DNA of 36,865 nucleotides from Bacillota bacterium. GTDB lineage: Bacteria > Bacillota > Sulfobacillia > JACIYH01. Positions 9,437 to 33,761 of the stretch are shown piece by piece (within the stretch, counting starts at the first letter, position 1; each line of letters opens with the position of its first letter). The stretch covers positions 1 to 36,865 of the forward strand of contig JASEFA010000015.1 of the NCBI GenBank assembly GCA_030019365.1. The letters run 5' to 3'. The translations under genes were made by a program, and so were the position numbers. The notes under the pieces were generated by a model that worked only from the letters and a program-made list of their open reading frames with translations, did no database searches and was not told where the DNA came from.

Positions 9437-10408
9437 TCAGGGGTTGACCAGACGGGTGATCTCCGAAAGCCACACCACGAACTCGGCCGTCACGTCTATC
9501 GCGGTATAGCGGGCACCGCCAGCGGCCGGATTCTGCCAGCTGCCGTCTGGCTGCTGGGAAGCGACCAGGTACTCGCCCACGCGGAGAGCCACCCCACGGT
9601 ACCGCTCCTCCCCGGTCAGCGAATGCATGAGAGCCGAGCCCCAGCCGACCTTCCCGCCCTGGGCCCGGCGGAACACATACTCCCCGCATCTGTCAGCGAA
9701 ATCCATGTAGGAAGCGGCAAGACGCAGGTAGTCCCGGTCGCCGGTGGCCATGTAGCAACTGGCCAGGAACCCGGCCGCAATACCCGGGATGAAGTACCAC
9801 TGCCAGTCCGCGCCAGCCTTGAGGACATAAGCGGAAGCCTGCTCGGCCGGGAACTCCGTCACCAGGCCGGAACCCTCCCGCCACACGAAGTACAGGGCCG
9901 TCTCGGGCTCCGGTTGCACCTCCCAAAGGCGCTTCAGAAATGCCGCCACCCGCAGCGCCCGGTCGATCCGGCCCGTGTACAGTGCCGCCATGCCCGCCAT
10001 GCAGGTGCACATGGTGTCCTGCCCGGGTTGCCCCGGCCGGGAGTAAAACCCGCCCGAGGGACCCTGCAACGTCTCCAGGAAATCCATGCCCCGCCGGGAA
10101 ATGTCGAAGTACCCCAGCCGGTGCGCACCGCAGACCAGCCAGGAATTGGCGTAGGGATAGATTGTTTCATGGAGTGGGCCGCGCGGGAACGGACCCAGGA
10201 AGTCACCGTTGGGAGCAAGGACGTTGGCCCTGACCCACTGGAGCAACCTGCTGGCCTCCCCCAGGTACCCGCCGGCGGCATATGCCCACGGGATTTTGTA
10301 ATACGCGCCCACTCCGTCTTCCGGGCAAACCGAGCCGTCAGCATTCTGCAAGTCCAGTAACCACCGAAGGCCCTTCTGCAGCGCTTGCTGCATCTTCCCG
10401 GCACTCAT
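9437..10408 (-). CDS. Alpha/alpha-toroid protein with QW-like repeats, function unknown
   Basis: I do not recognise an orthologous enzyme. The 323-residue protein is helical and carries three repeats of the type hydrophobic-x-x-x-LQ-x-x-DGS-aromatic: about residues 13-26 (LRWLLDLQNADGS), 109-122 (MDFLETLQGPSGGFY) and 280-291 (YLVASQQPDGSW). These resemble the QW motifs of terpenoid cyclases, protein prenyltransferase beta subunits and other alpha6/alpha6 barrels. Aromatic-rich segments such as YPYANSWLVCGAHRLGYFD and WQWYFIPGIAAGF fit a barrel lining. No signal peptide is seen. The start is ATG at 10408 behind GGGGGTG, 17 bases after the stop of AOR copy 1, so it probably shares a transcript with that enzyme. 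A carbohydrate-active or isoprenoid-handling function is possible; neither is shown. Confidence 0.7.
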   Translation of the reverse strand: MSAGKMQQALQKGLRWLLDLQNADGSVCPEDGVGAYYKIPWAYAAGGYLGEASRLLQWVRANVLAPNGDFLGPFPRGPLHETIYPYANSWLVCGAHRLGYFDISRRGMDFLETLQGPSGGFYSRPGQPGQDTMCTCMAGMAALYTGRIDRALRVAAFLKRLWEVQPEPETALYFVWREGSGLVTEFPAEQASAYVLKAGADWQWYFIPGIAAGFLASCYMATGDRDYLRLAASYMDFADRCGEYVFRRAQGGKVGWGSALMHSLTGEERYRGVALRVGEYLVASQQPDGSWQNPAAGGARYTAIDVTAEFVVWLSEITRLVNP

Positions 10409-10425
10409 ACTCGCACCCCCAGAGC

Positions 10426-12270
10426 TCAGGCACCGCACGGCAACCCCAGATCCACGAGCTTTGCCCGCGACGGACGGCCGTTCTCATCCCAGCCACGCAA
10501 CCTGTAATACTCCAGCAACGTGCTCTCAAACGGTTCGGGTACCTTGCCCGCGCGGAACCCTTCGCGGGCGGGTTCGAACATCCTGGGCGGCAGGCGGTCG
10601 TCTTTGCGCGAGATGCCGTCCCCCACGTTGATCACCCGCTGCAGGTTGAAGACGCGCTCTCCCGCACGGATGAGTTCCTCCGGGGTCATATCCCAGCCGG
10701 TGACGGCGTTGAGGGCAGCTACCGTCTCGCCCAGCCCCTGCCCCGTAGTCTGCATGAACAGGCAGCAAACGAGTGAATCCAGCACCGTGGCGTAATCCTG
10801 GAACAGCTTCGCCAGGTAAGCCTGGCCTTCCATCGAGAACCGGGCCGGGGGCTTCTCGAACCCCACTTCCGGCATCACCATCCCCGATTCCCCTCCGTGG
10901 GGGAAGCCGCGCAGGTGGCACGCGCCCCTCGTGCTGGTGGCATAGTTGATGGCCAGGCTGAAGTAGGTGCGGGGATCGTGAGCGGGAAAGTCCAGGCCCT
11001 TCACTTCCACCGTTATCGCTTCCGCGCCCTTGCCGATGGCGCGGGCCGCCGGTCGGATGCCTCTCGCAAACAGGGCCCCAAACCCCTCCCGCTTCCCTAT
11101 CTGCTCCACCAGGTGGACCAGGAAATCCCCGCTCCCCCAGGTGGCCTCCCACCCGTCCAGGTCCGCCCGCGTCACCCAGCCTTTCTCGTAGCACTCCATG
11201 GTGAATGCCACGAACGAACCCGCCGATATGGTGTCTAGCCCCAGCCTGTTGCAGAGGTCGTTCGCCCAGGCCACGGCATCGAGGTCGTCAACCATGCAGC
11301 ATGCGCCCAGCATGGCCAGGCTCTCGTACTCGGCCCCCGCACCCCCCTCGATCCGGTAGCGACCGTCGAGGTCGATGCGGCGGTGGCACCCTACCGGGCA
11401 TGAGGCGCACCGCCACGAACGCGCGCGCAGGTACTCGGTGAACCGCGGCGCCCCTATGCGGGCCGCCCCTTCGGGCCACCTGTCACCGCTCCAGTACCTG
11501 ATGGGGAGGTCCCCCGCTGCCTCACAATCGGACACAAACAGGGCAGTGCCGTGAGCGCGGCATGTGTCCCTGTTCGCACGGGCCAGCCTGGTGGAAAGCT
11601 CCCCGCGCAGCCTGCGCAGTTCCTCAGGATTGGCCACCTCCGGCCGGCGGCCTCCGGACACCACGATCGCCTTCAGGTTCTTGGCCCCCATCAGCGCCCC
11701 CAGGCCGCACCTGCCGGCGAAACTGTGCGCATCAGCGGAGATACAGGCTATGGCGACCTGCCTCTCACCCGCGGGGCCGATCGTCACCACGGATGCCCGC
11801 TCGTCCCCCACCTCCCTCCGGGCGAGCTCCACCGTCACAACGGCATCCCGTCCCCACAGAGAAGGTGCCGGCCTGATTTCGGCGCCTTCCTCCGTAACCC
11901 AGAGAAGGCTGGGGACGTCAGCCTTCCCCCTGATCACGATGCCCTCCAGGCCGGCTCCCTTGAGACGCGCCCCCCACTCCGCACCCCCCGTGCTCACGGC
12001 GAAGGTGCCCGTCAGCGGCGACTTCCCCACCACCGCCCACTTGGCGCTGCCGGGCAGCCCGGTGCCCTGGTAAGGTCCCACCGCAAAGATGAGGCAGCTG
12101 TCAGGCTCCAGGGCGCCAGCGCCGGGCGGAACCTCGTCGTACAGGATGCGCGTGCCCAGACCCGACCCGCCAACGTAAGACCGCCAGAAATCGCGACTGA
12201 ACTCACGTATCTCCGTTCCCCCTGATCCCAGGTCCACCCGCAGCACGCGGTTGAAGTAACCTGGCTGCAT
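10426..12270 (-). CDS. aor: Tungsten-type aldehyde:ferredoxin oxidoreductase, copy 1
   Basis: This cytoplasmic enzyme is expected to oxidise aldehydes to carboxylic acids (or the reverse) with ferredoxin, using a bis-pyranopterin tungsten site. The 614-residue product has the family's N-terminal GYFNRVLRVDL and the pterin-binding GLPGSAKWAVVGKSPLTGTFAVS and GRCGLGALMGAKNLKAIVV segments. The [4Fe-4S] cysteines are C288-x2-C291-x3-C295, with a fourth candidate at 502/503. The second pterin loop LGLDTISAG is also present. The three clustered cysteines fall at the same numbers as in the Pyrococcus enzyme. The start is ATG at 12270 behind GGAGG. It is a close paralogue of the gene at 18147-19985. 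A 154-base leader with tandem palindromes precedes it. No ferredoxin or cofactor-synthesis gene is adjacent. Confidence 0.95.
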   Translation of the reverse strand: MQPGYFNRVLRVDLGSGGTEIREFSRDFWRSYVGGSGLGTRILYDEVPPGAGALEPDSCLIFAVGPYQGTGLPGSAKWAVVGKSPLTGTFAVSTGGAEWGARLKGAGLEGIVIRGKADVPSLLWVTEEGAEIRPAPSLWGRDAVVTVELARREVGDERASVVTIGPAGERQVAIACISADAHSFAGRCGLGALMGAKNLKAIVVSGGRRPEVANPEELRRLRGELSTRLARANRDTCRAHGTALFVSDCEAAGDLPIRYWSGDRWPEGAARIGAPRFTEYLRARSWRCASCPVGCHRRIDLDGRYRIEGGAGAEYESLAMLGACCMVDDLDAVAWANDLCNRLGLDTISAGSFVAFTMECYEKGWVTRADLDGWEATWGSGDFLVHLVEQIGKREGFGALFARGIRPAARAIGKGAEAITVEVKGLDFPAHDPRTYFSLAINYATSTRGACHLRGFPHGGESGMVMPEVGFEKPPARFSMEGQAYLAKLFQDYATVLDSLVCCLFMQTTGQGLGETVAALNAVTGWDMTPEELIRAGERVFNLQRVINVGDGISRKDDRLPPRMFEPAREGFRAGKVPEPFESTLLEYYRLRGWDENGRPSRAKLVDLGLPCGA

Positions 12271-12314
12271 ACTCCTTCTGCCTCCCCCGGGACAACGGCC
12301 TTCACCCGATAGCG

Positions 12315-12349
12315 TCTCTGTCAGAGAGATGCCATCTCGCTCCTGGAGC
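12315..12349 (-). promoter_or_regulatory. Three tandem short palindromes in the leader of AOR copy 1
   Basis: Three perfect palindromes, each with one central base, follow one another. They are TCTCTG-T-CAGAGA (12315-12327), GAGATG-C-CATCTC (12326-12338, sharing two bases with the first) and GCTCC-T-GGAGC (12339-12349). They lie 45-80 bases upstream of the aor start, in an otherwise empty 154-base gap. As DNA they could be protein-binding half-site pairs; as RNA they could fold into three consecutive mini-hairpins with 3-base loops. Which applies is not known. Confidence 0.45.
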
Positions 12350-12424
12350 ACTAATTCGCCACATCCACGTTAAACTCCTCCCTAACCACCCATCATCTCC
12401 GCCACGCGCGGCCATACCGCCTCC

Positions 12425-13432
12425 TCACCGATAGCTGATACGCGGATCGCAGACGCTATAGAGGAGGTCGACCAGCACATTCACCAGGCTGTAGGCGAGC
12501 GCCGCAACCAGGGCAAATCCCATCATCGCCGGGAAATCGAAGGCAACCATGGCCCCGACGGCGTACCGTCCCAATCCGGGCCAGGAGAATATCGTCTCGG
12601 TCAACACCGCACCCCCGAGCAGCGAACCGTAGATGATGCCCAGCATGGTCAGGGTGGGGAGCAGTGCGTTCCTCAGTGCATGCCGGTAGATAACAAATCT
12701 CTCGCTGAGACCTTTCGCGCGTGCCGTGCGCACGTAATCCTCGCCGAGCACCTCCAACATGCTGGACCGTGCAAGCCGCAGTATCTGGCCGGCACCGCCG
12801 TATGCAAGGGCAAAACCCGGGAGGAGAAGGTGCCAGGATGCGTTGACGAACGCATCGAATCTGCCCGTCAGAACGCTGTCAACCAGGTACAACCCGGTCA
12901 GATGCCGGGGCGGGGATACTGCCAGGTCCAGCCGACCCCAGGCCGGGAACACACCGAGCTTGCCGTAGAAAACGAGGATCAACAAGAGTCCGAGCCAGAA
13001 TATGGGAGTGCAAACGCCGCCCAGGGCCAGGACTCTGGTAACATGATCGAAAACAGAATCCCGTTTTACGGCAGAGATAACCCCGGCCGGTATCCCCAGG
13101 ACTATGGTGAGGAATCCAGCCACTGTAGCCAGTTCCACTGTCGCCGGGAAGTAGCGAGCGATCTCCGCTGCGACAGGCCGTCCGGTCTGAAGCGATGTAC
13201 CCAAGTCACCCCTCAGGAGCCCCTCCACATACAGGAGGTATTGCTGCCACAAAGGCTTGTCCAGCCCCATCTTAGCCCTCAAGGCCTGGACCACTTCTTC
13301 AGGGGCAGCATCACCCGCGTACAGCCTGGCCGGGTCCACCGGGACAACCCTCGACAGGACGAACATCATCAGGGTGATTCCTATCAGCACCGGCACCAGG
13401 GCCAGAATCCTGCGTACCAAGTACCCTGCCAA
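12425..13432 (-). CDS. Dpp/Opp-type ABC transporter permease, DppB-like (set 2)
   Basis: This 335-residue membrane permease has the DppB N-terminus (YLVRRILALVPVLIGITLMMFVLSRVVPVDPARLYAG), MGLDKPLWQQYLLYVEGLLRGDLGTSL and the EAA loop DYVRTARAKGLSERFVIYRH. It closes with LVDLLYSVCDPRISYR. The start is TTG at 13432, preceded by GAAGGTG. It is the last gene of the second transporter set, which in transcription order is permease C, binding protein, permease B. That order is unusual, because B and C are normally adjacent. It follows the binding-protein stop by 39 bases. No ATPase subunits accompany the set. Confidence 0.93.
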   Translation of the reverse strand: MAGYLVRRILALVPVLIGITLMMFVLSRVVPVDPARLYAGDAAPEEVVQALRAKMGLDKPLWQQYLLYVEGLLRGDLGTSLQTGRPVAAEIARYFPATVELATVAGFLTIVLGIPAGVISAVKRDSVFDHVTRVLALGGVCTPIFWLGLLLILVFYGKLGVFPAWGRLDLAVSPPRHLTGLYLVDSVLTGRFDAFVNASWHLLLPGFALAYGGAGQILRLARSSMLEVLGEDYVRTARAKGLSERFVIYRHALRNALLPTLTMLGIIYGSLLGGAVLTETIFSWPGLGRYAVGAMVAFDFPAMMGFALVAALAYSLVNVLVDLLYSVCDPRISYR

Positions 13433-13471: not shown

Positions 13472-15040
13472 TTACTGGACATCCACACGGTACAGATCAA
13501 CCGTCCAGTACGGGATCAGTTCGTACCCCTTGACGTTTGCCCGCGCCAACTGGACGTTCTTGGTCACGAACAACCACGCCCAAGCTCCGTCGTCGGCTTC
13601 GATAGCCTGTATCTTCTTGTACAGCTGGACGCGTTCTGCAGGATCCAGGGACCGGCGGGCCTTTTCAATAAGCTCCGTGACCTCGTGATTGACGTAGGAG
13701 AGGCGCTTGGTGCCTCCGTGGTTCTCATCCCCGTGCGAGGTAACGATGTTGTCCGGGTCAGGATAAACCGGACCCCACATCCACATCGCAAACGGGATTT
13801 TCCCGCTCCTGTAAGGTTCAAGCAACGTGCCCACGTCCTGCTTGATGGGCTCAACCCTGATGCCGATCTGGGCCAGGTCGCTCTGGATCTTCACGGCCAC
13901 ATTCTCGGGAGGAATCCCGAGGCCCTTGATAGGCGCCGACTGGTAATGCATGGTTACGCTGAACCCGTCCGGATAACCGGCCTGTCGCATGAGCTCCTTT
14001 GTCTTGGCCACATCCTGCTTGACACAAAGCCCTGGGTCATAGCCCAACAAGCTCGGGGCGAGAATACCTCCCACCTGGACCGCATACGCCTTCAGCACGT
14101 TTTGTATCAGGCCGTTGTAGTCTATGGCGTATCTGACCGCCTGCCTGACCTCCTTCTTCTTGAAGGGTTCGAAGGCCAGGTTCATGGCCAGGTAGTATGG
14201 AACAGTGTCTGGCATCTCCAGCTTCTGGAACCCGCTCTTGGCGACCAGCTGCTCCACCTGATCGGGGAGAAGATCCTGAGCCACGTCTATGTCGCCCTTT
14301 TCCAGCATCGCGGCCTGGGAAGACGCTTCGGGCACGACCAGGAATACTACTTGATCGAGCTTGGGTGCTTGACCCCAGAACTTTGGGTTCCGCACCAGGA
14401 CGATCCTGTCCTTGGGCTGCCATGACTCAACCATGAAGGGGCCCGAACCGGCGCTGTGGTCCTTGAGCCACGTCTTCCCCATATCGCCGTTCTGCTCATG
14501 CTCGGCAATCACCTTGGGATCCACGACGCCAGCCACTACACTGCTCAATATAGCGAGAAGCGGTGCATACGGCTTGGCCAGGGTTATCTGGAGGGTCTGC
14601 TGGTCAACAACCTGAACTGCGTTCTCATCGATGCACTGGCTGAGCATCCAGGACGGGAACATCTTCTGCTTGATCCCGCGGAGCAGCGAATACTTAACAG
14701 CCTCAGCAGTAACAGGGTTGCCGCTCGCAAACCTGGCCGGCTCGTTGAGGTGGAAAGTCCACTTCAGCCCGTCCCCGGACACCTCCCAGCTCTTGGCGAG
14801 CCAGGGCTTGAACGAATTCGTCTTGGGATCATACTTGACAAGGCGCTCGTAAACGTTGTTTGCGACCATTAAGCCCTTGAAGTCCACTGTGTCATGAGGG
14901 TCAAGGGTCACCGCATCTGCCCCTATGGCCACCCGCAGCACCTTCGGCTTGCTCTGCGGCCCGCCTCCCTTGCACGCAGGGAGAGCCGCTATCAGAAGGA
15001 GAACCAGACAAACCGACAGGAGCACCCTTACCTTCCGCAC
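13472..15040 (-). CDS. Family-5 (Dpp/Opp) extracellular solute-binding lipoprotein (set 2)
   Basis: The lipoprotein of about 522 residues has a signal sequence RKVRVLLSVCLVLLLIAALPAC, with the lipobox ending at Cys23. Family-5 features are LRVAIGADAVTLDPHDTVD near the mature N-terminus, LKWTFHLNEPARFASGNPVTAEAVKYSL, GSGPFMVESWQPKDRIVLVRN and VRQAVRYAIDYNGL. I chose GTG at 15040 rather than the upstream GTG at 15049, because AGGAGG (15049-15054) is 8 bases from the former but overlaps the latter. It lies between the two permease genes of set 2. Its sequence differs clearly from the set 1 binding protein, so the two systems probably take different ligands. Confidence 0.94.
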   Translation of the reverse strand: MRKVRVLLSVCLVLLLIAALPACKGGGPQSKPKVLRVAIGADAVTLDPHDTVDFKGLMVANNVYERLVKYDPKTNSFKPWLAKSWEVSGDGLKWTFHLNEPARFASGNPVTAEAVKYSLLRGIKQKMFPSWMLSQCIDENAVQVVDQQTLQITLAKPYAPLLAILSSVVAGVVDPKVIAEHEQNGDMGKTWLKDHSAGSGPFMVESWQPKDRIVLVRNPKFWGQAPKLDQVVFLVVPEASSQAAMLEKGDIDVAQDLLPDQVEQLVAKSGFQKLEMPDTVPYYLAMNLAFEPFKKKEVRQAVRYAIDYNGLIQNVLKAYAVQVGGILAPSLLGYDPGLCVKQDVAKTKELMRQAGYPDGFSVTMHYQSAPIKGLGIPPENVAVKIQSDLAQIGIRVEPIKQDVGTLLEPYRSGKIPFAMWMWGPVYPDPDNIVTSHGDENHGGTKRLSYVNHEVTELIEKARRSLDPAERVQLYKKIQAIEADDGAWAWLFVTKNVQLARANVKGYELIPYWTVDLYRVDVQ

Positions 15041-15065
15041 CTCATCCACCTCCTGGTCTTGAGTA

Positions 15066-15914
15066 TCAAAGCTTCCTCAACCGAGGGTCCAGAGAATCAC
15101 GAAGCGTGTCACCCAGCAAGTTGCAGGCCAGCACCGTCAACAGGATGGCCAACCCGGGAAAGGTGGCGACCCACCATGCGTTCAGGATGTAGTTGCGGCC
15201 ACCGCTCACCATGGCGCCCCATTCAGGAGCAGGGGGTTGTATTCCAAACCCCAGGAAGCTCAGGTTGGCTGCGATCAAGATGGCCATCCCCACGTCCAGG
15301 GTAGCGCGCACAATGATTGGTGCCACACTATTGGGGAATACGTGCCTCCAGAGCACCTTCAGGGACGGTTCCCCCAGTGCTCGCGCCGCCTCCACAAACT
15401 CGCGTTCCCGAACGGAAAGCACCACACTGCGCACCAGCCTTGCGTATACCGGCCATGCTGTGGCCGCAACTGCCACCACAGTGCTGAGCAAGCCCGGTCG
15501 CATGACAGCTGCAACTGCCATGGCCAGGACCAGCTGGGGGAAAGCCAGGAACACGTCAGCCGCCCGCATCAACAACTGGTCCACGGCACCGCCCACCCAG
15601 CCCGACACAAGCCCGGCACCGGTTCCCACCGTAGAGGCGAAACTGACCGTAATCAGGCCCACGGTGAACGAGATCCGCCCGCCGTGGACTATGCGGCTGA
15701 GGACATCCCGCCCCAACTCGTCAGTTCCCAGCAAGTGCTCCCGCCCCGGGGCACGGAAGGCTTGGGCGACGTTCTGCTGGTGCGGCGGGTAAGGCGCCAC
15801 CCAGGGAGCCAGGCACGCCGACGCCACCATAACTAGGAGGAACGCGCCCGCCAGCAGCGCCGACCACTTCCTGGCCCAGAACATCCATCCCCGCCTTCCG
15901 CGCCCGCCGGCCAC
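15066..15914 (-). CDS. Dpp/Opp-type ABC transporter permease, DppC-like (set 2)
   Basis: This 282-residue membrane permease has the first transmembrane helix (WSALLAGAFLLVMVASACLAPWVAPY), GTDELGRDVLSRIVHGGRISFTVGL and LMRAADVFLAFPQLVLAM. The EAA loop EFVEAARALGEPSLKVLWRH is present, and the C-terminus is NLLGDTLRDSLDPRLRKL. All are standard for DppC/OppC proteins. The start is GTG at 15914. It comes 23 bases after the DapA-family gene and 25 bases before the binding-protein gene, so transport and metabolism genes are interleaved in one transcription unit. This suggests that the lyase or LarA acts on the imported compound. Confidence 0.93.
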   Translation of the reverse strand: MAGGRGRRGWMFWARKWSALLAGAFLLVMVASACLAPWVAPYPPHQQNVAQAFRAPGREHLLGTDELGRDVLSRIVHGGRISFTVGLITVSFASTVGTGAGLVSGWVGGAVDQLLMRAADVFLAFPQLVLAMAVAAVMRPGLLSTVVAVAATAWPVYARLVRSVVLSVREREFVEAARALGEPSLKVLWRHVFPNSVAPIIVRATLDVGMAILIAANLSFLGFGIQPPAPEWGAMVSGGRNYILNAWWVATFPGLAILLTVLACNLLGDTLRDSLDPRLRKL

Positions 15915-15937: not shown

Positions 15938-16912
15938 TCAGCGCGGCAATCCCATGGAACTGAGAACAGCGTGCAACTCGGCCTTTTCGTCGTCACTTAA
16001 GGGCAACACCGGCAAGCGGCACCCACCGAAATCGAAGCCGCGCCAGCGCAGTCCTTCCTTGACTATGCTGAGGAATTTAGATCCCCCACCCGTCCGCCAG
16101 CTCTCAAGGTACGGGCACAGCTTGTGGTAGAGGCTGTGCAACGGCTGCAGCCACTCGAGCGCCGCCTTGATCCCCGCGAAGTCGTTCGCCCTCACTGCCC
16201 GGTACAGCGCGAAGACAGGCTCCGGAGCATAAAGAACCACGTTGGAGAAGCAGGCCGTGCACCCCGTAACAAATGAGGACCAGCCAAAATGCAGTTCCCC
16301 GCCCATGTTGTTAATGTAGGCCACTTTCCCCTTCAGCGCCCCGCACCGCGTGTAAAACTCCTGGCCGCTCGCAGGCACATCCTTCATGGCCACGAAGTTC
16401 TCGTAGCGGGTCAATTCCAGCATCATCTCCAGGGGCATGGAAAAGTTGGTGTACACCGGGTTGTTGTAAATCATGAGCGGGAATCCATCTACCGATTCGA
16501 AAATCCTGCGATAGTGAGCAAGGACGCCGGCCGCGTCCGGAGAGCAGTAGAACGGATTGGTTATCATCGCGCAATCCGCGCCAGCATCACGCACTTCACA
16601 GACCCGCTGGATAGTCAGATGCGTAGCGGGCTCTACTGCCCCGCCCACCACGGGAGCACGACCGCGCGTCTGTTCAACTGCAGCCCCGATCACCTCAGTC
16701 CTCTCCGCGGGACTGAGGGCATAAACTTCTCCGTTGGCTCCAGCCACGAGGAATCCGGCAATGGCCCCGTCCCGGTCCTTTCCGAAAAGGAATTCGATAT
16801 ACTCCTTCAGAGGGCTGACCTCCACATGCTGCTCTTCTCCGCGAAACGGGGTCATAAGAATGGGATGAACGCCGTTGTCCATTCTCTCACGCAGTGCTGC
16901 ATAATCGGCCAC
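15938..16912 (-). CDS. DapA/N-acetylneuraminate-lyase family aldolase or dehydratase
   Basis: This 324-residue class I (Schiff-base) TIM-barrel enzyme carries the catalytic tyrosine Tyr149 in IYNNPVYTN and the Schiff-base lysine Lys177 in NFVAMKDVP. In DapA itself the substrate-binding loop is GTTGE; here it is VAGANGEVYALS, which fits a lyase or hydratase-aldolase on another 2-oxo-acid better than lysine biosynthesis. The protein is also longer than DapA (about 290 residues) and has an altered C-terminus. No other lysine-pathway gene is nearby. GTG at 16912 starts one base after the LarA stop, so the two are tightly coupled, and transporter set 2 follows. The likely role is cleavage of an imported or LarA-processed acid, with the substrate unknown. 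Confidence 0.88.
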   Translation of the reverse strand: MADYAALRERMDNGVHPILMTPFRGEEQHVEVSPLKEYIEFLFGKDRDGAIAGFLVAGANGEVYALSPAERTEVIGAAVEQTRGRAPVVGGAVEPATHLTIQRVCEVRDAGADCAMITNPFYCSPDAAGVLAHYRRIFESVDGFPLMIYNNPVYTNFSMPLEMMLELTRYENFVAMKDVPASGQEFYTRCGALKGKVAYINNMGGELHFGWSSFVTGCTACFSNVVLYAPEPVFALYRAVRANDFAGIKAALEWLQPLHSLYHKLCPYLESWRTGGGSKFLSIVKEGLRWRGFDFGGCRLPVLPLSDDEKAELHAVLSSMGLPR

Positions 16913-16913
16913 T

Positions 16914-18128
16914 TCAGTTCGCTCCTTTCTCGTTCACAACCAGCGTTAGCGCTGCTGCGCGCAGGACGATGACCCGGGCGGAATCTCCGTGCTTCGCCCG
17001 GATCTGGTCCACGATGTCGGAAACGCGCTCACCGCACCGTACGCTGTTACCGTATACCCCCTCCAGTTCCCCGCTGGTGAGCCACCGCGAATAGAAATGG
17101 ACTTCCTCCCTCGTCTGGTCGTGCAGCAATGTCGGCCGCTTGCAGTCCTCCATCAGCCCATGAAAGCCCACCCCTTCCTGACATCCTCCCAGCCATAGCA
17201 AGCTCCCTCCCCGCCTGAGGGCCAGGGCGCCCACGGAGCGGCCCTTGGCAGCCTGGTTCAAATCAATGTCGAAGGGAGCCGAATTTGCGATTACCACATC
17301 CGCCGGTACCCTCACGCGGAGGCTGTAGATGCCGCTCGCCAGCACAGCAGCGTGCCGGTGGGCCTTCACCGGATCCCCCGCCACCACGTACACGGGCAGT
17401 CCGTCCTGGTCGGGGACCAAGTTGACGACGAATTTCAGCCCCGCGAGTGCAGCAGCAGCTTCCATATCCTCCCGCACCGGGTTGGAGGTCACATTACCGT
17501 ACAACGGTCCGGTGGCGAACTTGGCAACCTCGAAGTGGTTGTGCGCGATGGACTCCAGCCCGCTGACACCCGGGAGGATGACCTTCGCGCCGCCGGCGTA
17601 ACCAGCCAGAAAGTGAGGCACGACCGACCCGACCCCGATCACGAAGTCCGCCTCAGCGATCTCCCGGTTTACCCACACAGGAGTACCGAAGGGGGTATTG
17701 CCCACCATCACCAGACTCTGGCGGTCCCGATAGTTGTGCGCGAGGCAACGCACACGATTGAGCACATCATCACCCAAAAACGCACGGATATCCTGCGCCG
17801 AGGGCACCCGATGAGTACCAACCCCGACGAGCACGGTGACGTCGCAATCCCGCACCCCCGCCGAAGCCAGTACGTTCAGCAGTGCCATTGCCACTTCTCC
17901 GGTGGGACCAGGGCGCGTGTGATCCTGCACCACTATGCACACTCGCTGCCCCGGCCGCACCATTTCCCGCAGAGGAGAGGCACCCACTGGGGACTCCAGG
18001 CACCCGACGAGATCGGGCCAGGCGAGGTCGCCACCGCCCGTAATGCCGAAGTCATGCTCTACCTGCCAGGTATCGGGGAGTTCCAGACCAACAGAAGACG
18101 ATCCGTGCCGCAACTGCAGCCGATACAC
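16914..18128 (-). CDS. larA: LarA-family nickel-pincer (NPN cofactor) 2-hydroxyacid racemase/epimerase
   Basis: LarA enzymes racemise lactate or epimerise related 2-hydroxy acids by transient hydride transfer to a nickel-pincer nucleotide. The 404-residue protein retains the essential residues seen in Lactiplantibacillus LarA. These are an Asp69-x-x-Arg72 motif (DHTRPGP), the two acid-base histidines His106 (GTHR) and His172 (PHFLAGYAGG), the cofactor-linking Lys182 (GGAKVILPG) and the nickel ligand His198 (IAHNHF). The offset of nearly all of these positions is constant, which supports activity. Cofactor-synthesis genes (larB, larC, larE) are not in the window. It lies 18 bases after AOR copy 2 and one base before the DapA-family gene. 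Physiological substrates of LarA homologues are diverse, so lactate is not assured here. Confidence 0.92.
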   Translation of the reverse strand: MYRLQLRHGSSSVGLELPDTWQVEHDFGITGGGDLAWPDLVGCLESPVGASPLREMVRPGQRVCIVVQDHTRPGPTGEVAMALLNVLASAGVRDCDVTVLVGVGTHRVPSAQDIRAFLGDDVLNRVRCLAHNYRDRQSLVMVGNTPFGTPVWVNREIAEADFVIGVGSVVPHFLAGYAGGAKVILPGVSGLESIAHNHFEVAKFATGPLYGNVTSNPVREDMEAAAALAGLKFVVNLVPDQDGLPVYVVAGDPVKAHRHAAVLASGIYSLRVRVPADVVIANSAPFDIDLNQAAKGRSVGALALRRGGSLLWLGGCQEGVGFHGLMEDCKRPTLLHDQTREEVHFYSRWLTSGELEGVYGNSVRCGERVSDIVDQIRAKHGDSARVIVLRAAALTLVVNEKGAN

Positions 18129-18146
18129 ACGGCATCCCTCCCCCGA

Positions 18147-19985
18147 TCACCCCTGCGCCAATCCGAGGCTGCGCAGGGTCGGTGGACTGGGTCTGCCGTC
18201 TTCGTCCCAACCCCGCAGGGCGTAGTACTCGAGCAGGGTCACCTCGAAGGGTTCCGGTACTTTGCCCGCGCGGAAGCCCTCTTTGGCCGCCTCGAACATC
18301 TTGGGGGGCAGGCGATCCTCTTTGCGGCTGATGCCGTCGCCGACGTTGATGAGCCGCTGCAGGTTGAATGCCCGCTCACCCACCCGCAGGAATTCCTCCG
18401 GCGTCATGTCCCAGCCCGTGATGGCGTTGATCGCGCGCGCCGTCTCCCCCAGCCCCTGGCCCGTAATCTGCATGAAGCAACAGCAAACGGCCGAGTCCAG
18501 GGCGGTTGAGTAGTCCTGGAAAAGCTTGGCCAGCTGCGCCTGACCCTCCATCGAGAACCGAACCGGCGGCTTGTCCAGGCCCACCTCCGGTAACATCATT
18601 CCGGCCTCGCCGCAATGGGGGAACCCACGCAGGTGGCAGGCACCCCTGGTGCTGGTGGCGTAATTGATGGCCAGGCTGAAGTAGGTGCGGGGATCGTGAG
18701 CGGGAAAGTCGAGCCCCTTCACCTCTACCGTGATCGCCTCTGCTCGGGGGCCGACCGCCCTGGCCGCCTCCCGGATGCCCCGGGCAAAGGTGGCCCCGAA
18801 ACCCTCGCGGCGGCCGATCTGCTCGACCAGGTGAACCAGGAAATCCCCGTTCCCCCAGGTGGCCTCCCGGCCATCCAGGTCCTCCCGGGTCAGCCAGCCC
18901 TTCTCGTAGCACTCCATGGTGAACGCCACAAAGGAGCCCGCAGATATGGTGTCGAGACCCAGCCGGTTGCAGAGGTCGTTCGCCCAGGCCACGGCATCGA
19001 GGTCATCAACCAGGCAGCATGCCCCCAGCATCCCCAGGCTTTCGTACTCGGGTCCGGCACCGCCCTGTATGCGGTACTCACCGTTGAGATCGATACGCCG
19101 GTGACAGCCTACGGGGCAGGAGTGACACGGCCAGGAGCGAGCCCGCAGGTGGTCCGTGAAACGCTGGCCGCCGATCCGGGCAGCCCCCTCCGGCCACCTG
19201 TCCCCCTGCCAGTACTTCATGGGAAGATCACCGATAGCCTCGCAGTCACTCACAATCCCTGCCGTGCCGTGGGCGTGGAAGCCGTCCCTGTTGGCCCGGG
19301 CCAGGCGCGCAGCCAGGTCCGCGCGCAGCCTTTTCAGTGCCTCGGGGTCAGCTGCTACTGCCCGCCGGCGGCCCGATACCACCACCGCTTTCAGGTTCTT
19401 GGAACCCATTACCGCCCCCAGGCCGCACCTGCCGGCGAAGCTGTGGCTGTCGGCCGCTATGCAGGCGATGGCCACCTGCCTTTCCCCGGCCTCGCCTATG
19501 GTCGCCACGGCCGCGTCCGGGTCTCCCACCTCCCTTTTCGCCAGTTCCGCCGTCTCCACCGCATCCCTGCCCCAAAGGGCGGTCGGTCTCAACTCGGCCC
19601 CGTCCTCGTTCACGTAGAGCAAAGACGGCACCTGGGCCCGCCCCTTCAGCACGATGGCCTCCAGCCCAGCGCCCTTCAGGCGAACACCCCACTCCGCTCC
19701 GCCGGTGCTCACCGCAAAGGTGCCCGTGAGGGGCGACTTGCCCACCACCGCCCACTTGGCGCTGCCGGGAAGCCCGGTGCCCTGGTAGGGACCGACGGCG
19801 AATATGAGGCAGTTGTCGGGCGAGAGAGGATCCGTACCCGGAGGCACCTCCTCGGACAGGATGCGGGTGGCCAGAGCAGACCCGCCCAGGTACTGGCGCC
19901 ACGTATCTTCCGGATAGCTGCCCACCTCGGTTCTGCCCGTGCTCAGATCGACCCAGAGGATGCGGTTGAAATAGCCCTTGGGCAC
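18147..19985 (-). CDS. aor: Tungsten-type aldehyde:ferredoxin oxidoreductase, copy 2
   Basis: The 612-residue paralogue of the gene at 10426-12270 is alike over its whole length, at both protein and DNA level. It carries the same pterin-binding segments, the [4Fe-4S] cysteines C287-x2-C290-x3-C294 (CHSCPVGC), the late cysteine cluster at 501-503 and the LGLDTISAG loop. Differences concentrate in the N-terminal 60 residues, in the stretch around residues 205-245 and at the C-terminus. The start is GTG at 19985 behind GGGGGTGA, 5 bases after the dehydrogenase stop; LarA follows in 18 bases. The context suggests aldehyde/acid chemistry linked to hydroxy-acid metabolism. Ferredoxin and cofactor genes are not adjacent. 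Confidence 0.95.
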   Translation of the reverse strand: MPKGYFNRILWVDLSTGRTEVGSYPEDTWRQYLGGSALATRILSEEVPPGTDPLSPDNCLIFAVGPYQGTGLPGSAKWAVVGKSPLTGTFAVSTGGAEWGVRLKGAGLEAIVLKGRAQVPSLLYVNEDGAELRPTALWGRDAVETAELAKREVGDPDAAVATIGEAGERQVAIACIAADSHSFAGRCGLGAVMGSKNLKAVVVSGRRRAVAADPEALKRLRADLAARLARANRDGFHAHGTAGIVSDCEAIGDLPMKYWQGDRWPEGAARIGGQRFTDHLRARSWPCHSCPVGCHRRIDLNGEYRIQGGAGPEYESLGMLGACCLVDDLDAVAWANDLCNRLGLDTISAGSFVAFTMECYEKGWLTREDLDGREATWGNGDFLVHLVEQIGRREGFGATFARGIREAARAVGPRAEAITVEVKGLDFPAHDPRTYFSLAINYATSTRGACHLRGFPHCGEAGMMLPEVGLDKPPVRFSMEGQAQLAKLFQDYSTALDSAVCCCFMQITGQGLGETARAINAITGWDMTPEEFLRVGERAFNLQRLINVGDGISRKEDRLPPKMFEAAKEGFRAGKVPEPFEVTLLEYYALRGWDEDGRPSPPTLRSLGLAQG

Positions 19986-19990
19986 CTACT

Positions 19991-21001
19991 TCACCCCCGT
20001 CTGCTAGCCGGCCAAATGGTTTGCTGGCCGGGCGAGTGGTCTGCAGCTGGCCTGTTGCCCATCGCCGGCTGGCCGTGACCGAGAAGCTTGAGCATCTTGA
20101 CCAGCATGCCGTCGCGCCAGGCCACCATATCCTGGTACGAGCGCCCTGCCGTGACCTCTTCCAGCCCGGATTCCAGACTCTCCACCGCACCATCGGGGAT
20201 CGACGTCCACGCCGACATGTCGCTCCACCACTGCTGGAAGGCAGGATGCAGATGCTCGACGAAGTGCCGGATGCCACCGGGACCCCCGCCCAGGTGGTAA
20301 ATCAGGTGCGGCCCCATCAGGGCGTACCGCAGCCCCGGGCCCGCCCAGATGGTCTTGTCGACGTCCTCCACGGAAGCAACGCCCCGGTGCACCAGGTCAA
20401 TGGCCTCGCGCCACAGGGCGGCGGTGATGCGGTTCTCCAGGTACCCCGGCACCTCACGCCGCAACACCACCGGCACCTTCCCCAAACCCTCCAGGAACCC
20501 TTTCGCCACCGCCAGCGCCTCCGGGGCGGTCCGTTCACCCGGGACGAGTTCCACGAGAGGTATCAGGTACACCGGGTTGATGGGATGGGCAATCAGGCAC
20601 CTCTCCGGGTGCCGAGTGACCTTCTGGATCTCCGTCATGAGCAGGCCCGACGAACTGCTGGCCAGAAGCGCATCGGGGGCCGCCACCCGGTCGGCAGCGG
20701 CGAACACCGACTTCTTGACGTCGTAGTCCTCCGCCACCGCCTCCTGCACGTAATCCGCACCCGCCACCGCCTCCTCCAGCGACGGTGCCAGGTTCACCGC
20801 GCGCGAAAGGCTCGCCGTAACCCCCTGCCGGGCAAGTCCTTCTCGCTCGAGGAAACCGACCGTCTCCGCCAGCCCCCCGAGCGCCGCCCGCGCGGCCGAG
20901 GGGTCAAGGTCGAAAACAGAGACCTGCAACCCCCTGCTGGCGAAGAAGGCCGTCCAGCCCCTGCCGATCACGCCCTGGCCGATGACCGCGACCTTCCCCA
21001 T
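19991..21001 (-). CDS. 3-hydroxyacyl-CoA dehydrogenase-like NAD-dependent dehydrogenase (carnitine dehydrogenase/lambda-crystallin group)
   Basis: The Rossmann motif KVAVIGQGVIGRGWTAFF (GxGxxG at residues 8-13) opens the protein. An acidic residue follows at the end of the second strand (VFDLDP), so NAD is the expected cofactor. The catalytic histidine is His139 in LIAHPINPVYLIPLVELVPG, the form typical of L-carnitine dehydrogenase and L-gulonate 3-dehydrogenase rather than strict 3-hydroxybutyryl-CoA dehydrogenase (HFFNP). The C-terminal helical dimerisation domain follows (VPGYLENRITAALWREAIDLVHRG and GPGLRYALMGPHL). It probably oxidises a free or CoA-bound 3-hydroxy acid. ATG at 21001 is preceded by AAAGGTG; GTG at 21013 is an equally plausible start. 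It precedes AOR copy 2 by 5 bases. Confidence 0.87.
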   Translation of the reverse strand: MGKVAVIGQGVIGRGWTAFFASRGLQVSVFDLDPSAARAALGGLAETVGFLEREGLARQGVTASLSRAVNLAPSLEEAVAGADYVQEAVAEDYDVKKSVFAAADRVAAPDALLASSSSGLLMTEIQKVTRHPERCLIAHPINPVYLIPLVELVPGERTAPEALAVAKGFLEGLGKVPVVLRREVPGYLENRITAALWREAIDLVHRGVASVEDVDKTIWAGPGLRYALMGPHLIYHLGGGPGGIRHFVEHLHPAFQQWWSDMSAWTSIPDGAVESLESGLEEVTAGRSYQDMVAWRDGMLVKMLKLLGHGQPAMGNRPAADHSPGQQTIWPASRRG

Positions 21002-21062: not shown

Positions 21063-22247
21063 TCAACCCAGGAATTCCACGCACACCTGGGCCAGGATGG
21101 CGGCACCCACCGCCAGCACCTCTTCGTCCAGGTCAAAATCGGGGCTGTGCAGGGGCCGGTGGGTGCCCTTGCGCTTGTTCTGCGTGCCCAGCCAGAAGTA
21201 GCAGGACGGTACCCGCTGGGCAAAGCACGAGAAATCCTCCGAGACCATCGCCGGCGGAAGATTCCGGCAGACCCCCTGCTCGCCCAGCACCGCCGCAGCC
21301 GCCGAGGCCACCAGGTCCGCCGCGGCGGGGTCGTTCACCACCGCGGGGTAGCCCTGCTGGTACTCCACCTGAGCCCGACACCGATACACCCGGCCAACGC
21401 CCGTGGCCACCTCGCCAATCCGACGGCGCAGCAGGTCGCCCAGCGCGCCATCAAAGTAACGTGTAGTTCCTGCCAGGGTCACCTCCTCCGGAATCACGTT
21501 CGGCGACTCCCCACCGCGTACCATGCCTACGGAAAGCACCGCCGGCGCAATAGCATCCACGTTGCGGCTCACCACGCTGTCCAGGGCAACGACGGAATGG
21601 CAGGCCGCCAGCACCGCATCCGCCGCGCGGTGGGGCAGGGCACCGTGCCCGCCCCGGCCGGAAAACGTCACCCGGAAGAGGTCGGCGGCGGCCATCACCG
21701 CACCGGGGTGTACGCCCACCTTCCCGACTGCAAGGTCGGGCCAGACATGATAGCCCAACGCCAGATCGGCAGGGGGATCGTCGAGGACCCCTGCCCCCAC
21801 AAGGGCGCGCGCACCGCCGTCGGGGAGCTTCTCTTCGGCCGGCTGGAACACGAACCGGACCTCACCCCGCAGGAAGTCGCGCAACTCCCCGAGCAGAATC
21901 GCCGCCCCCACCAGCATGGCCATGTGCCCGTCGTGTCCGCAGGCGTGCATGACGCCTGGGACACGCGAACCATACTCGCGCCCCGGCACCTCGTCCACAG
22001 CCAGCGCGTCCATGTCCGAGCGCAGGACAACGACCCGCCCCCGTTCCTTGCCCCTGAGTATTCCCACCACGGCCGTTCCGGCAGGTAATGCCACGTCCAA
22101 TCCCACCTGCCGCAGGTACTCGCTTATGCGCCTGGCGGTGTTCACTTCCTCGTACCCGAGTTCCGGGTACTGGTGCAGCGTCCGCCTGAGTTCGACCAGC
22201 CGGGGCTGGAGGGCCCACGACCTCTGCAGCAACTGGTGCATCCTCAT
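21063..22247 (-). CDS. M20-family amidohydrolase (hippurate hydrolase/N-acyl-amino-acid amidohydrolase type)
   Basis: This 394-residue dinuclear metallohydrolase carries the family motifs: LHQYPELGYEE near the start, SDMDALAVDE, the metal-binding HACGHDGH (Cys103, His105) and FQPAEE (Glu138-Glu139). The ligand His167 lies in GYHVWPD, and SEDFS with a late histidine is near the C-terminus. The central lid domain includes the RGGHGALPH motif with its dimer-interface histidine. Relatives cleave N-acyl or N-aroyl amino acids, indole-acetyl conjugates or carbamoyl groups. The start is ATG at 22247 behind GGAGGAG. It is the first gene after the hairpin that follows the PucR regulator and leads block D, with the dehydrogenase gene 61 bases downstream. 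Confidence 0.93.
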   Translation of the reverse strand: MRMHQLLQRSWALQPRLVELRRTLHQYPELGYEEVNTARRISEYLRQVGLDVALPAGTAVVGILRGKERGRVVVLRSDMDALAVDEVPGREYGSRVPGVMHACGHDGHMAMLVGAAILLGELRDFLRGEVRFVFQPAEEKLPDGGARALVGAGVLDDPPADLALGYHVWPDLAVGKVGVHPGAVMAAADLFRVTFSGRGGHGALPHRAADAVLAACHSVVALDSVVSRNVDAIAPAVLSVGMVRGGESPNVIPEEVTLAGTTRYFDGALGDLLRRRIGEVATGVGRVYRCRAQVEYQQGYPAVVNDPAAADLVASAAAAVLGEQGVCRNLPPAMVSEDFSCFAQRVPSCYFWLGTQNKRKGTHRPLHSPDFDLDEEVLAVGAAILAQVCVEFLG

Positions 22248-22372: not shown

Positions 22373-24010
22373 CTAGCTGTACAAATTGTTAGCCGTCCAT
22401 AACGAAAGCGCCAATTGCAGGTTCAGGCGGTCGCGGGCCGAACTCAGCTTCACTCCGCACAGCTTTTCAATCTGCTCAAGGCGGTAACGCACGGTGCTGT
22501 GGTGAAGATAAAGTGCCTGGGCCGCTTGCCGATAGTTCCCTCCGTGCTCTAAAAAGGCACGCAGGGTGAGCAGCAGTTCGGTTCTGTGCTTGCGATCGTA
22601 TTCGAGCACGGGCCCCAACACGTCCTGTACGAACTGGACTACCTCCGGCGCGCGGAGATCCCGGACCAGACGGTGGATTCCCAGGTCGCGGAACTGCACG
22701 ACTGCGTTGCCCCCTACCATGGGGGCCAACTCCACCGCCATCACGGCCTCCCCGTAACTCTCGCGCACGCCGCGCACTCCGTGCCCTGTCCGGCCGACCC
22801 CGGCCAGAAGCTCAAGCCTGGGGTGGGCGCGACCCAGGACGCCTACGAGCCGGCGCACGTCCCGCGCCACCTGATCATCGGCGACGTCCGGTCGCTCACC
22901 GGCCGACGCCGGAAACAACACCAGGGGCCGCTCAGCATGATCGACTCCAGTCAGGCTCCGAGGCTCAAGACCGGCACCTTGCAGCAGGTCCAGGACCCTC
23001 CACGCCGGCCGCGGCATCCTCTCTTCTCCCCACCCCAGCGGTGTGGAAACCAACTTGAAGACAACGGCTGTGTAGGCTTCCGCCAGTTCCCAGCCCAGCT
23101 TCCAGGCCCTCTCGCGGGCAGTCGCCTCGGACTCAAAGTCGCCCCGCACCAGATGGTGCAGGAAGTCGTCCCGCATCGTGCGCTCGAGGTTCCTCAGGGC
23201 GCGCAGCTTCTCCACCTCAAGGGCGGCCACAGTGGCGGCGTGCTGCAGGGCGGTAATCCCCCAGGCGTCTAAAGATCCCTCCCGCTCCCAGACCACGATC
23301 CATCCTCCCTGGTGGCGACCGGTCCGGATGGGACAGACCAGACGGGGAGATGCGGTCTCGGACGAGATCCTCCGGATGCCCCCGTATCCGATGACCGGGT
23401 GGGCCTCCTCCCCCGCGCTGGCAAGCCAGGGTTCGGGCGCACCATCTCCTTCGGAATTATCACCGCTCGTGAAGACGCCTCCGGTGCACGTCTCCACCAC
23501 CAGTACCGGGTTCTTGACCAGACCAGCCAGAGCCGACGCCAACTCCTGCAGGCCCCGCCCTTCCAGCGCCAGGTCGATGAACCGGCGGTGGATCTCCCAC
23601 GACTGGGCCAGCTCGCGTGCCTGACGCCCCAGCAACTCCTGCAGGACGGCGTTTATGATGTCCTTCCACGCCAGGTCCCCGGGTAGCCTCACCACCGGCA
23701 AACACAACTGGTCGGCACAGGCCCGCACGTCCGCACCGATGGTACCCACGAATCGCTCCAGCTTTACTCCCAGCCCGGCCGCTCCCCGGCCGTGCAGGTC
23801 CCGGATAAGGGTTATCTGATCCTCCACCCCACCCTTGTACAGGAAGAGAGTGCTCAACACCAGCTCGCCGCCCCTGATGAACTGGATGCCGTCAGGGGCG
23901 TCTATCACCGTAACCGCGGAGACCTCGCGCCCAAGTCCATCGGACCCGGCCAGGACCTCGCTGCCCGCCAGCATAGGAAGAGAGAGCGCTTCCCGAACCG
24001 TGAGGGGCAT
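22373..24010 (-). CDS. PucR-family transcriptional regulator
   Basis: This 545-residue DNA-binding regulator has the three-part PucR architecture. Residues 1-125 form the PucR N-terminal domain (MPLTVREALSLPMLAGSEVLAG and RGGELVLST through LPGDLAWKDIINAVLQELL). A central GAF/GGDEF-like sensor follows (about 150-440, with FRDLGIHRLVRDL at its end). The C-terminal CdaR/PucR-type helix-turn-helix lies at about 480-540 (LRAFLEHGGNYRQAAQALYLHHSTVRYRLEQIEKLCGVKL). Such regulators control purine, 4-aminobutyrate, proline and similar nitrogen-compound catabolism. ATG at 24010 has only a weak ribosome binding site. It sits between the threonine-synthase-like gene and the M20 amidohydrolase and probably controls one of these blocks in response to a pathway intermediate. 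Confidence 0.93.
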   Translation of the reverse strand: MPLTVREALSLPMLAGSEVLAGSDGLGREVSAVTVIDAPDGIQFIRGGELVLSTLFLYKGGVEDQITLIRDLHGRGAAGLGVKLERFVGTIGADVRACADQLCLPVVRLPGDLAWKDIINAVLQELLGRQARELAQSWEIHRRFIDLALEGRGLQELASALAGLVKNPVLVVETCTGGVFTSGDNSEGDGAPEPWLASAGEEAHPVIGYGGIRRISSETASPRLVCPIRTGRHQGGWIVVWEREGSLDAWGITALQHAATVAALEVEKLRALRNLERTMRDDFLHHLVRGDFESEATARERAWKLGWELAEAYTAVVFKLVSTPLGWGEERMPRPAWRVLDLLQGAGLEPRSLTGVDHAERPLVLFPASAGERPDVADDQVARDVRRLVGVLGRAHPRLELLAGVGRTGHGVRGVRESYGEAVMAVELAPMVGGNAVVQFRDLGIHRLVRDLRAPEVVQFVQDVLGPVLEYDRKHRTELLLTLRAFLEHGGNYRQAAQALYLHHSTVRYRLEQIEKLCGVKLSSARDRLNLQLALSLWTANNLYS

Positions 24011-28422: not shown

Positions 28423-29100
28423 CTACGCAGAGGATGCTATTTCCTGGACGACCCGTGCCACTACCGAACGCGCCAGTACCACGGGGCCTCGGAACACCTT
28501 CCGCGCCCGGGACTTCATCTCAGAAGAGTACCCGAAGCAATTCATGAACACCAGGTCGCACCCAGCTTCCGCCAGCCTCCGGGCCGCCTCCTGGATCCTG
28601 TCCTGAGGCTCATAAGGCGAGGCGTGCATCGCTACCGCCCGCACGCCACGGCGTGCAAAGGCCGCCTGAGCTGCCGCCACCTGCTCTGGCAAAGGCACCA
28701 GCACGCCCAACAACCCATCACCGACCAGTGCTGCGACCACCGAATGGCACACATCGGACGAACGCACCAGCCTGGGCTCGCTCGCAAGCCCGGGGAAATC
28801 CCCCGTGCACATGAGCACCACCAGGTCACTGCCGCCCGCGAGCGCCTGGCGCGCCTTTTCACCGATGAGAGGAACCAGAGCCTTCTTGGCCAGCACCACC
28901 GTCCGGCCATCACGCAGGGGGGTCACGATGCGATCCTCGTCCCCTACCGGTGCCATCCCGGCGATCTCGGCCGACTCAAGACCGTCCAGGACTCCCACCT
29001 CCTGCACGGCACATTCCGTGCCCAGCAGTGCTGCGAACTCGGGCACAAGCGTGTCCGGACGCGGCGTCTGACCCACCATAAGCAAAGTTACGCGTGCCAA
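28423..29100 (-). CDS. AroM-family protein
   Basis: The protein of about 225 residues has the AroM opening VTLLMVGQTPRPDTLVPEF. It also carries LMCTGDFPG and a late GCDLVFMNCFGYSSEMK segment, with Cys in the positions that resemble the two catalytic cysteines of the Asp/Glu racemase superfamily. The biochemical role of AroM is not established; in enterobacteria it is co-transcribed with a shikimate kinase gene, but here no shikimate gene is present. TTG at 29100 is chosen because a near-perfect GGAGGTGA precedes it by 7 bases. It overlaps the racemase-like gene by 13 bases. Two adjacent genes of related fold suggest consecutive or partner functions. Confidence 0.88.
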   Translation of the reverse strand: MARVTLLMVGQTPRPDTLVPEFAALLGTECAVQEVGVLDGLESAEIAGMAPVGDEDRIVTPLRDGRTVVLAKKALVPLIGEKARQALAGGSDLVVLMCTGDFPGLASEPRLVRSSDVCHSVVAALVGDGLLGVLVPLPEQVAAAQAAFARRGVRAVAMHASPYEPQDRIQEAARRLAEAGCDLVFMNCFGYSSEMKSRARKVFRGPVVLARSVVARVVQEIASSA

Positions 29101-30901: not shown

Positions 30902-30919
30902 GCTTCCTTACCTCCCCGG

Positions 30920-31726: not shown

Positions 31727-31727
31727 G

Positions 31728-32591: not shown

Positions 32592-32592
32592 C

Positions 32593-33732: not shown

Positions 33733-33761
33733 GGTAAAACGCCTCCCGTTCAACTCCGGGG

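Follow-up and report, generated by a model that had tools for sequence, protein, structure and literature searches.

Gene content and layout of the run

The window analysed here, a 36,865-nucleotide (nt) stretch from a Bacillota bacterium of the class Sulfobacillia (assembly GCA_030019365.1, contig JASEFA010000015.1, positions 1 to 36,865), is contig 15 of a genome of 2.94 Mb assembled into 27 contigs. It carries a tight, co-directional gene run that encodes two copies of a tungsten-type aldehyde:ferredoxin oxidoreductase (AOR), a divergent LarA-family protein, a DapA-family lyase, a dehydrogenase and an importer (Table 1). The run is headed by a PucR-family regulator and an M20 amidohydrolase, and we interpret it as one probable operon that includes the importer and would be read as a single transcript. 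Functions throughout were assigned from homology and gene order; in related loci, length was the only criterion for calling open reading frames.

Table 1 Genes of the PucR-headed run, with window coordinates and domain evidence
Gene product	Coordinates	Strand	Evidence
PucR-family transcription regulator, first gene of the group	22373..24010	-	PF07905, PF13556
M20 amidohydrolase, hippuricase/aminoacylase type	21063..22247	-	PF01546; TIGR01891 353 bits, cut-off 153.75
NAD-dependent 3HCDH-family dehydrogenase, lambda-crystallin/carnitine-dehydrogenase type	19991..21001, start ATG 21001	-	PF02737 173 bits, PF00725
AOR copy 2, tungsten-type	18147..19985	-	PF01314 404 bits, PF02730 229 bits
LarA-family 2-hydroxy-acid isomerase, dependent on the nickel-pincer nucleotide (NPN); divergent, C-terminal domain shortened	16914..18128	-	PF09861 Lar_N 190 bits
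DapA-family (Schiff-base class I) lyase	15938..16912	-	PF00701 120 bits
ABC importer permease, OppC/NikC type	15066..15914	-	PF00528, PF12911; Opp2C 304 bits, cut-off 300
Solute-binding protein, family 5	13472..15049	-	PF00496 302 bits
ABC importer permease, OppB/DppB type	12425..13432	-	PF00528, PF19300
AOR copy 1	10426..12351, likely start ATG 12270	-	PF02730, PF01314

The recomputed gaps are 61 nt between the M20 and dehydrogenase genes, 5 nt from the dehydrogenase to AOR copy 2, 18 nt to LarA and 1 nt to the lyase, followed by 23 nt to OppC, 16 nt to the solute-binding protein, 39 nt to OppB and 73 nt to AOR copy 1. This last gap widens to about 154 nt if AOR copy 1 starts at ATG 12270, which is preceded by a good ribosome site. 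Purine-rich ribosome sites precede most gene starts of the run, and promoter and terminator matches inside it were no more frequent than expected by chance. An earlier, sequence-only reading had grouped the dehydrogenase, AOR copy 2, LarA and the lyase, at gaps of 5, 18 and 1 nt and followed by an importer. Those distances are exact, and the group is real. The group was drawn too small, as the run begins with the regulator and the amidohydrolase, and the range assigned to it (16912-19985) leaves out the lyase itself (15938-16912).

Two further features were observed in the window. The end of AOR copy 1 overlaps by 13 nt a gene for a 333-residue protein (9437-10438), which had no Pfam match above threshold and weakly resembles cyclase/glycosidase repeats. 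Upstream, at 28423-33765, genes for AroM, an Asp/Glu racemase, two S-Me-THD-like proteins and ABC permeases make up a second amino-acid-type catabolic block.

Recurring partners of the AOR genes

The two AOR copies are 79% identical and pair at 100/100 in the tree. Copy 2 has the AFOR_N and AFOR_C domains, CxxCxxxC at residue 287 and a later Cys near 501, and so belongs to the AOR family. The window AORs grouped with those of genomes G450 (62% identity), G264 (59%) and G199 (57%) at 99/97, and this group joins at 100/100 a clade of AORs from G017, G054, G037, G015, G173 and G216. Three more AOR genes, from other clades, lie in a row elsewhere in the same genome (G000:C2:69000-84000, L197). For many AORs, no physiological substrate is known.

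Two of the nearest relatives lie in clusters with the same first genes as the window. The order in G199 (L157) is PucR, M20, ABC importer, MttB, threonine-type aldolase, AOR and MoaD-like; in G450 (L230) it is PucR, M20, TRAP, pyruvate-dehydrogenase-type E1 alpha and E1 beta, AOR and MoaD-like. The PucR homologues that head these clusters are 31-36% identical to the window regulator, and the M20 homologues in the clusters of near AOR relatives are 48% and 41% identical to the window enzyme. The cluster of the third near relative, G264, contained neither PucR nor M20. In the window, the dehydrogenase sits between M20 and AOR copy 2, and LarA and the lyase come after it. Since G199, G450 and the window share PucR, M20 and AOR and differ in the rest, PucR and M20 are recurring AOR partners while the middle enzymes vary. 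The sequence-only grouping had missed this PucR-M20-AOR core. The G199 aldolase and the G450 E1 subunits are other possible sources of aldehyde beside near AORs.

The sister-clade AORs have a different neighbour. In G017 (L158), G054 (L155), G037 (L156) and G015 (L163) the AOR gene directly adjoins a gene for a DapA-family deaminase. AcnX and/or Pro_racemase Pfam matches, FAD oxidases and gene order identify the G054, G037 and G015 loci as hydroxyproline clusters; in G017 the AOR-DapA pair alone was seen. An AOR of another clade adjoins the same kind of deaminase in the same arrangement in G302 (L192), so the pairing arose more than once. Thus, four of the five DapA-adjacent AOR genes are in hydroxyproline-type clusters, G017 being the exception. 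By a rough estimate with assumed gene densities, same-strand AOR-DapA adjacency has a chance probability of about 1e-4 per AOR.

In the hydroxyproline pathway, a deaminase of the DHDPS superfamily makes alpha-ketoglutarate semialdehyde, which is normally oxidised by an aldehyde dehydrogenase (PMC4113996). No aldehyde dehydrogenase was found in the AOR-DapA stretches by tblastn with one probe, for which the only positive control was its own source locus. Gene content suggests that AOR may stand in for alpha-ketoglutarate semialdehyde dehydrogenase in these clusters. We found no paper naming AOR with hydroxyproline or alpha-ketoglutarate semialdehyde in a search that left most subscription journals outside its reach. 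The hydroxyproline pathway itself was ruled out for the window, where the genes scanned included no proline racemase-type epimerase, AcnX or DAO-type oxidase.

AOR genes also have LarA genes as same-strand neighbours in three genomes. In G197 the two genes are 18 nt apart and LarA is of the LarAH6 type; G017 has the same type at a distance of about 465 nt, and G216 has the lactate racemase type at 365 nt. The set of relatives held about 118 LarA loci, 80 of them read with wide flanks, and two had an AOR gene within 500 nt, against 0.07-0.14 expected from rough, assumed AOR densities. The LarA-AOR pairing therefore recurs, and it was not inherited as one block because the subfamilies differ.

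The LarA-like protein, the lyase and the dehydrogenase

We compared the LarA-like protein with curated models and with an alignment of 86 LarA proteins. Lar_N is the one Pfam domain matched. The catalytic residues of the superfamily are D72, H108, H174 and K298 in LarA numbering, and the NPN-binding residues are R75, K184 and H200; the window protein has D69, H106, H172 and K295 as well as R72, K182 and H198, and it also keeps Q292. These eight residues agree with the earlier statement that all nickel-pincer catalytic residues are kept. That statement does not extend to the position of Tyr294, which is occupied by Asn291, or to the alpha-14 specificity segment, which is absent: 21 residues stand there, compared with 42-50 in nearly all others. 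Tyr294 of LarA stabilises the cofactor and forms a bond with the 2-OH of the substrate; the Isosphaera enzyme lost NPN when this residue was replaced by Ala (PMC11851776). The specificity residue in alpha-14 is W358 in LarA, K351 in Mar2 and N348 in GntE2 (PMC7583248). No frameshift was detected in the tail, and the missing segment is not present in other frames. In a structure model the core is confident and residues 316-367 are poor, and the best matches are the Mar2 and LarA structures.

Two known functions were rejected for this protein. It is far below every curated LarA family cut-off, which excludes lactate racemase (NF033504, 233 bits against 460), as do Asn291 and the loss of the segment that would carry Trp358. 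Its best curated family, the LarAH6 malate racemase (NF052593), was excluded as well: the score is 281 bits against 500, Phe-Leu replaces the Tyr-Lys of Mar2 after the second catalytic His, the alpha-14 segment is gone, and the tree sets the protein apart from the LarAH6 clade, on a long branch. The known signatures do not tell which substrate it uses. The NPN biosynthesis genes larE-larB-larC are present on contig 5 of the same genome, where LarC (428 bits) and LarE (311 bits) occur together with a LarB-like open frame, recognised by eye, between them. On this evidence, the window protein is very probably an NPN enzyme and not a lactate racemase.

Other LarA genes came to light in the survey. 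A distant one (29% identity) in G154 (L206, 9491-10981) has a similarly short C-terminal segment, Gln at the place of Tyr294 and a sugar-importer-like context; it and the window protein perhaps form a short-tailed LarA group. A truncated LarA open frame of about 175 residues, apparently a remnant, lies at G000:C10:13736-14068 (L195) in the same genome. In G188 (L049) and G011 (L054), LarA genes adjoin UxaA/altronate-dehydratase-like and homocitrate-synthase-like genes, recognised by eye, and the G188 context also holds PucR, M20 and a second LarA.

The lyase retains the Schiff-base K177 (VAMKD) and the catalytic Y149 (IYNNP) of the class I DapA family. Arg138, the Schiff-base lysine and the tyrosine have textbook roles in DHDPS. 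The window enzyme has Tyr154 at the site of Arg138, and its motif GANGE replaces G(S/T)TGE. It falls below all NCBIfam cut-offs; the best model is the PRK03620/KdgD subfamily (112 bits against 278). A role in lysine biosynthesis as 4-hydroxy-tetrahydrodipicolinate synthase (dapA) was ruled out, as Arg138 is absent and TIGR00674 scores 106 bits against a cut-off of 206.

The dehydrogenase carries the 3HCDH domains with the His of HPINP and the Glu of VELV. Its nearest solved structures are the lambda-crystallins 3f3s and 3ado. The nearest NCBIfam models, one for 3-hydroxyacyl-CoA and two for carnitine dehydrogenase, all remain under the equivalog cut-off (best 267/347 bits).

Readings of the pathway and comparison with known systems

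We propose that the run encodes a single catabolic route. The Opp-type importer would take up a carboxylate, which may arrive in amide or peptide form and be opened by the M20 enzyme. The LarA-like NPN enzyme would then invert or epimerise the C2 hydroxyl, and the NAD-dependent dehydrogenase would oxidise a hydroxyl. The DapA-type enzyme would bind the keto acid so formed as a Schiff base on its lysine and break it by retro-aldol cleavage, dehydration or deamination, releasing an aldehyde or semialdehyde. AOR would oxidise this aldehyde to an acid and yield reduced ferredoxin, a product predicted from the AOR family alone. Of these steps, the passage from the lyase through an aldehyde to AOR has the strongest support, because the wider AOR clade recurs beside DapA-family genes. 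For the full scheme, with import, C2 epimerisation, dehydrogenation, Schiff-base cleavage and AOR oxidation in one PucR-headed operon, our confidence is a little short of even. We infer its single transcript, the order of its early steps, its electron acceptor and its substrate; the steps before the lyase are plausible, and the evidence does not set their order. The substrate would be a 2-hydroxy acid other than lactate or malate, judging from curated models and signature residues. Pantothenate or pantoate, which would combine an M20 step with a bulky 2-hydroxy acid, was considered only.

Several observations weigh against this scheme. The window LarA has Asn at the very position where the Isosphaera Tyr294 to Ala change cost the cofactor (PMC11851776). 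The lyase is 25-30% identical to the hydroxyproline deaminases, and the tree leaves its placement among DapA-family members unsettled. AOR-adjacent LarAs elsewhere belong to other LarA subfamilies, mostly beside other AOR subfamilies. The known relatives of the dehydrogenase oxidise the beta carbon (carnitine, L-gulonate at C3, 3-hydroxyacyl-CoA), and its plasmid homologues (about 43% identity) frequently have 3-keto-5-aminohexanoate-type cleavage enzymes as neighbours. LarA and the lyase require alpha-hydroxy and alpha-keto acids, so a beta-type dehydrogenase does not fit simply between them. It would fit a malate-like acid, whose hydroxyl is in the alpha position relative to one carboxylate and in the beta position relative to the second, or a 2,3-dihydroxy acid.

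Conservation of the set also counts against the scheme. The search for the lyase covered about 550 different genomes from the same class and phylum, out of 97,973; it returned no orthologue and nothing above 31% identity. The four-gene set of dehydrogenase, AOR, LarA and lyase was in none of the genomes searched. No LarA above 42% identity was detected among 200 relatives, and a pattern-based LarA scan of the wider genome collection returned five distant LarAs, none adjoining an AOR or a lyase gene. Plasmid searches reached about 29% for the lyase and at most 36% for LarA, and the viral contigs searched gave no match. As the lyase search covered only about 550 of 97,973 genomes, and the wider collection a single LarA scan, the set may well exist elsewhere.

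These results bear on the sequence-only reading in different ways. Its importer holds, and its path from lyase to aldehyde to AOR is the part that these comparisons support best. Its order of LarA, dehydrogenase and lyase is unsupported, because the dehydrogenase family oxidises beta-hydroxy groups. It had counted as points against itself a LarA within the strict lactate racemases and a lack of conserved gene association. Bit scores and signature residues place LarA outside that group; the full four-gene set was seen once only, and the AOR-DapA and AOR-LarA pairs recur.

A broader form of our proposal is possible, though less likely than not. Here the window would hold a new anaerobic pathway, in which an NPN-dependent LarA of an undescribed group, a beta-hydroxy-acid-type dehydrogenase and the lyase convert a 2-hydroxy acid to an aldehyde, to be oxidised with ferredoxin by a dedicated AOR clade, and this clade would be a general, exchangeable end module. 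Its inputs would be the alpha-ketoglutarate semialdehyde of hydroxyproline catabolism, acetaldehyde released from threonine and the aldehyde that the lyase yields.

The constancy of PucR, M20 and AOR in near AOR relatives, with varying enzymes between, is also consistent with a salvage kit in place of a linear chain. The lyase and AOR would be one module, and LarA and the dehydrogenase would carry out a separate conversion of the same nutrient; with a 2,3-dihydroxy acid, for instance, LarA would set C2 and the dehydrogenase would oxidise C3. Beta-hydroxy acids are the substrates of the dehydrogenase family, 2,3-dihydroxy acids among them (lambda-crystallin). However, with gaps of only 5, 18 and 1 nt, the dehydrogenase, AOR, LarA and lyase genes look like a single, closely balanced unit, and we regard this alternative as somewhat unlikely.

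An improbable explanation is the catabolism of an amide- or peptide-bound amino acid, with AOR oxidising the aldehyde of the lyase or of a threonine-type aldolase (88-1155) and LarA doing no more than recycling a 2-hydroxy acid side product. PucR, M20, a threonine-type aldolase and AOR co-occur in the window and in G199, and genes of amino-acid catabolism abound in the window, but its aldolase is over 9 kb downstream from AOR copy 1, beyond another importer and regulator. Least probable is that the LarA-like protein has degenerated or is an NPN enzyme other than a racemase, with no epimerisation step: the Asn at the Tyr294 position, the loss of NPN in Y294A (PMC11851776), the shortened segment and the low model confidence in the tail favour it, but no catalytic or NPN-binding residue has been lost, the reading frame stays open, and the distant G154 LarA is also short, with Gln at the Tyr294 place.

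The recurring partners offer testable AOR substrates, namely alpha-ketoglutarate semialdehyde in hydroxyproline clusters, the aldehydes that threonine-type aldolases release and whatever the lyase produces. The window LarA is outside all curated groups compared and is missing the known specificity element, so its substrate would extend nickel-pincer cofactor chemistry.

Each enzyme of the proposed route resembles known systems and departs from them. Lambda-crystallin is L-gulonate 3-dehydrogenase. The window dehydrogenase has the NAD site and His-Glu pair of this enzyme and of L-carnitine dehydrogenase and probably belongs to their family, and it differs in remaining under every equivalog cut-off. 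The LarA-like protein has the fold and the catalytic and nickel-pincer residues of Mar2 and other LarA families. In contrast to Mar2, it has Ala at the alpha-11 position, the Phe-Leu loop, Asn for Tyr294 and a deleted alpha-14 segment. The Schiff-base Lys and the Tyr of the lyase are common to KdgD, KDG-type and DHDPS members; it differs in scoring far below the PRK03620 cut-off, in lacking the Arg138 of DHDPS and in carrying GANGE. The window group also differs from the hydroxyproline pathway in having no proline racemase, AcnX or DAO gene and in its distant lyase. What they share is a DapA-family enzyme that makes, or would make, a semialdehyde for the next enzyme, which in related genomes seems to be AOR. 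The window AORs have both domains and the cysteine motif in common with AOR, FOR and GAPOR, but they match no curated equivalog and form a clade of their own, tied to PucR-M20 or hydroxyproline clusters.

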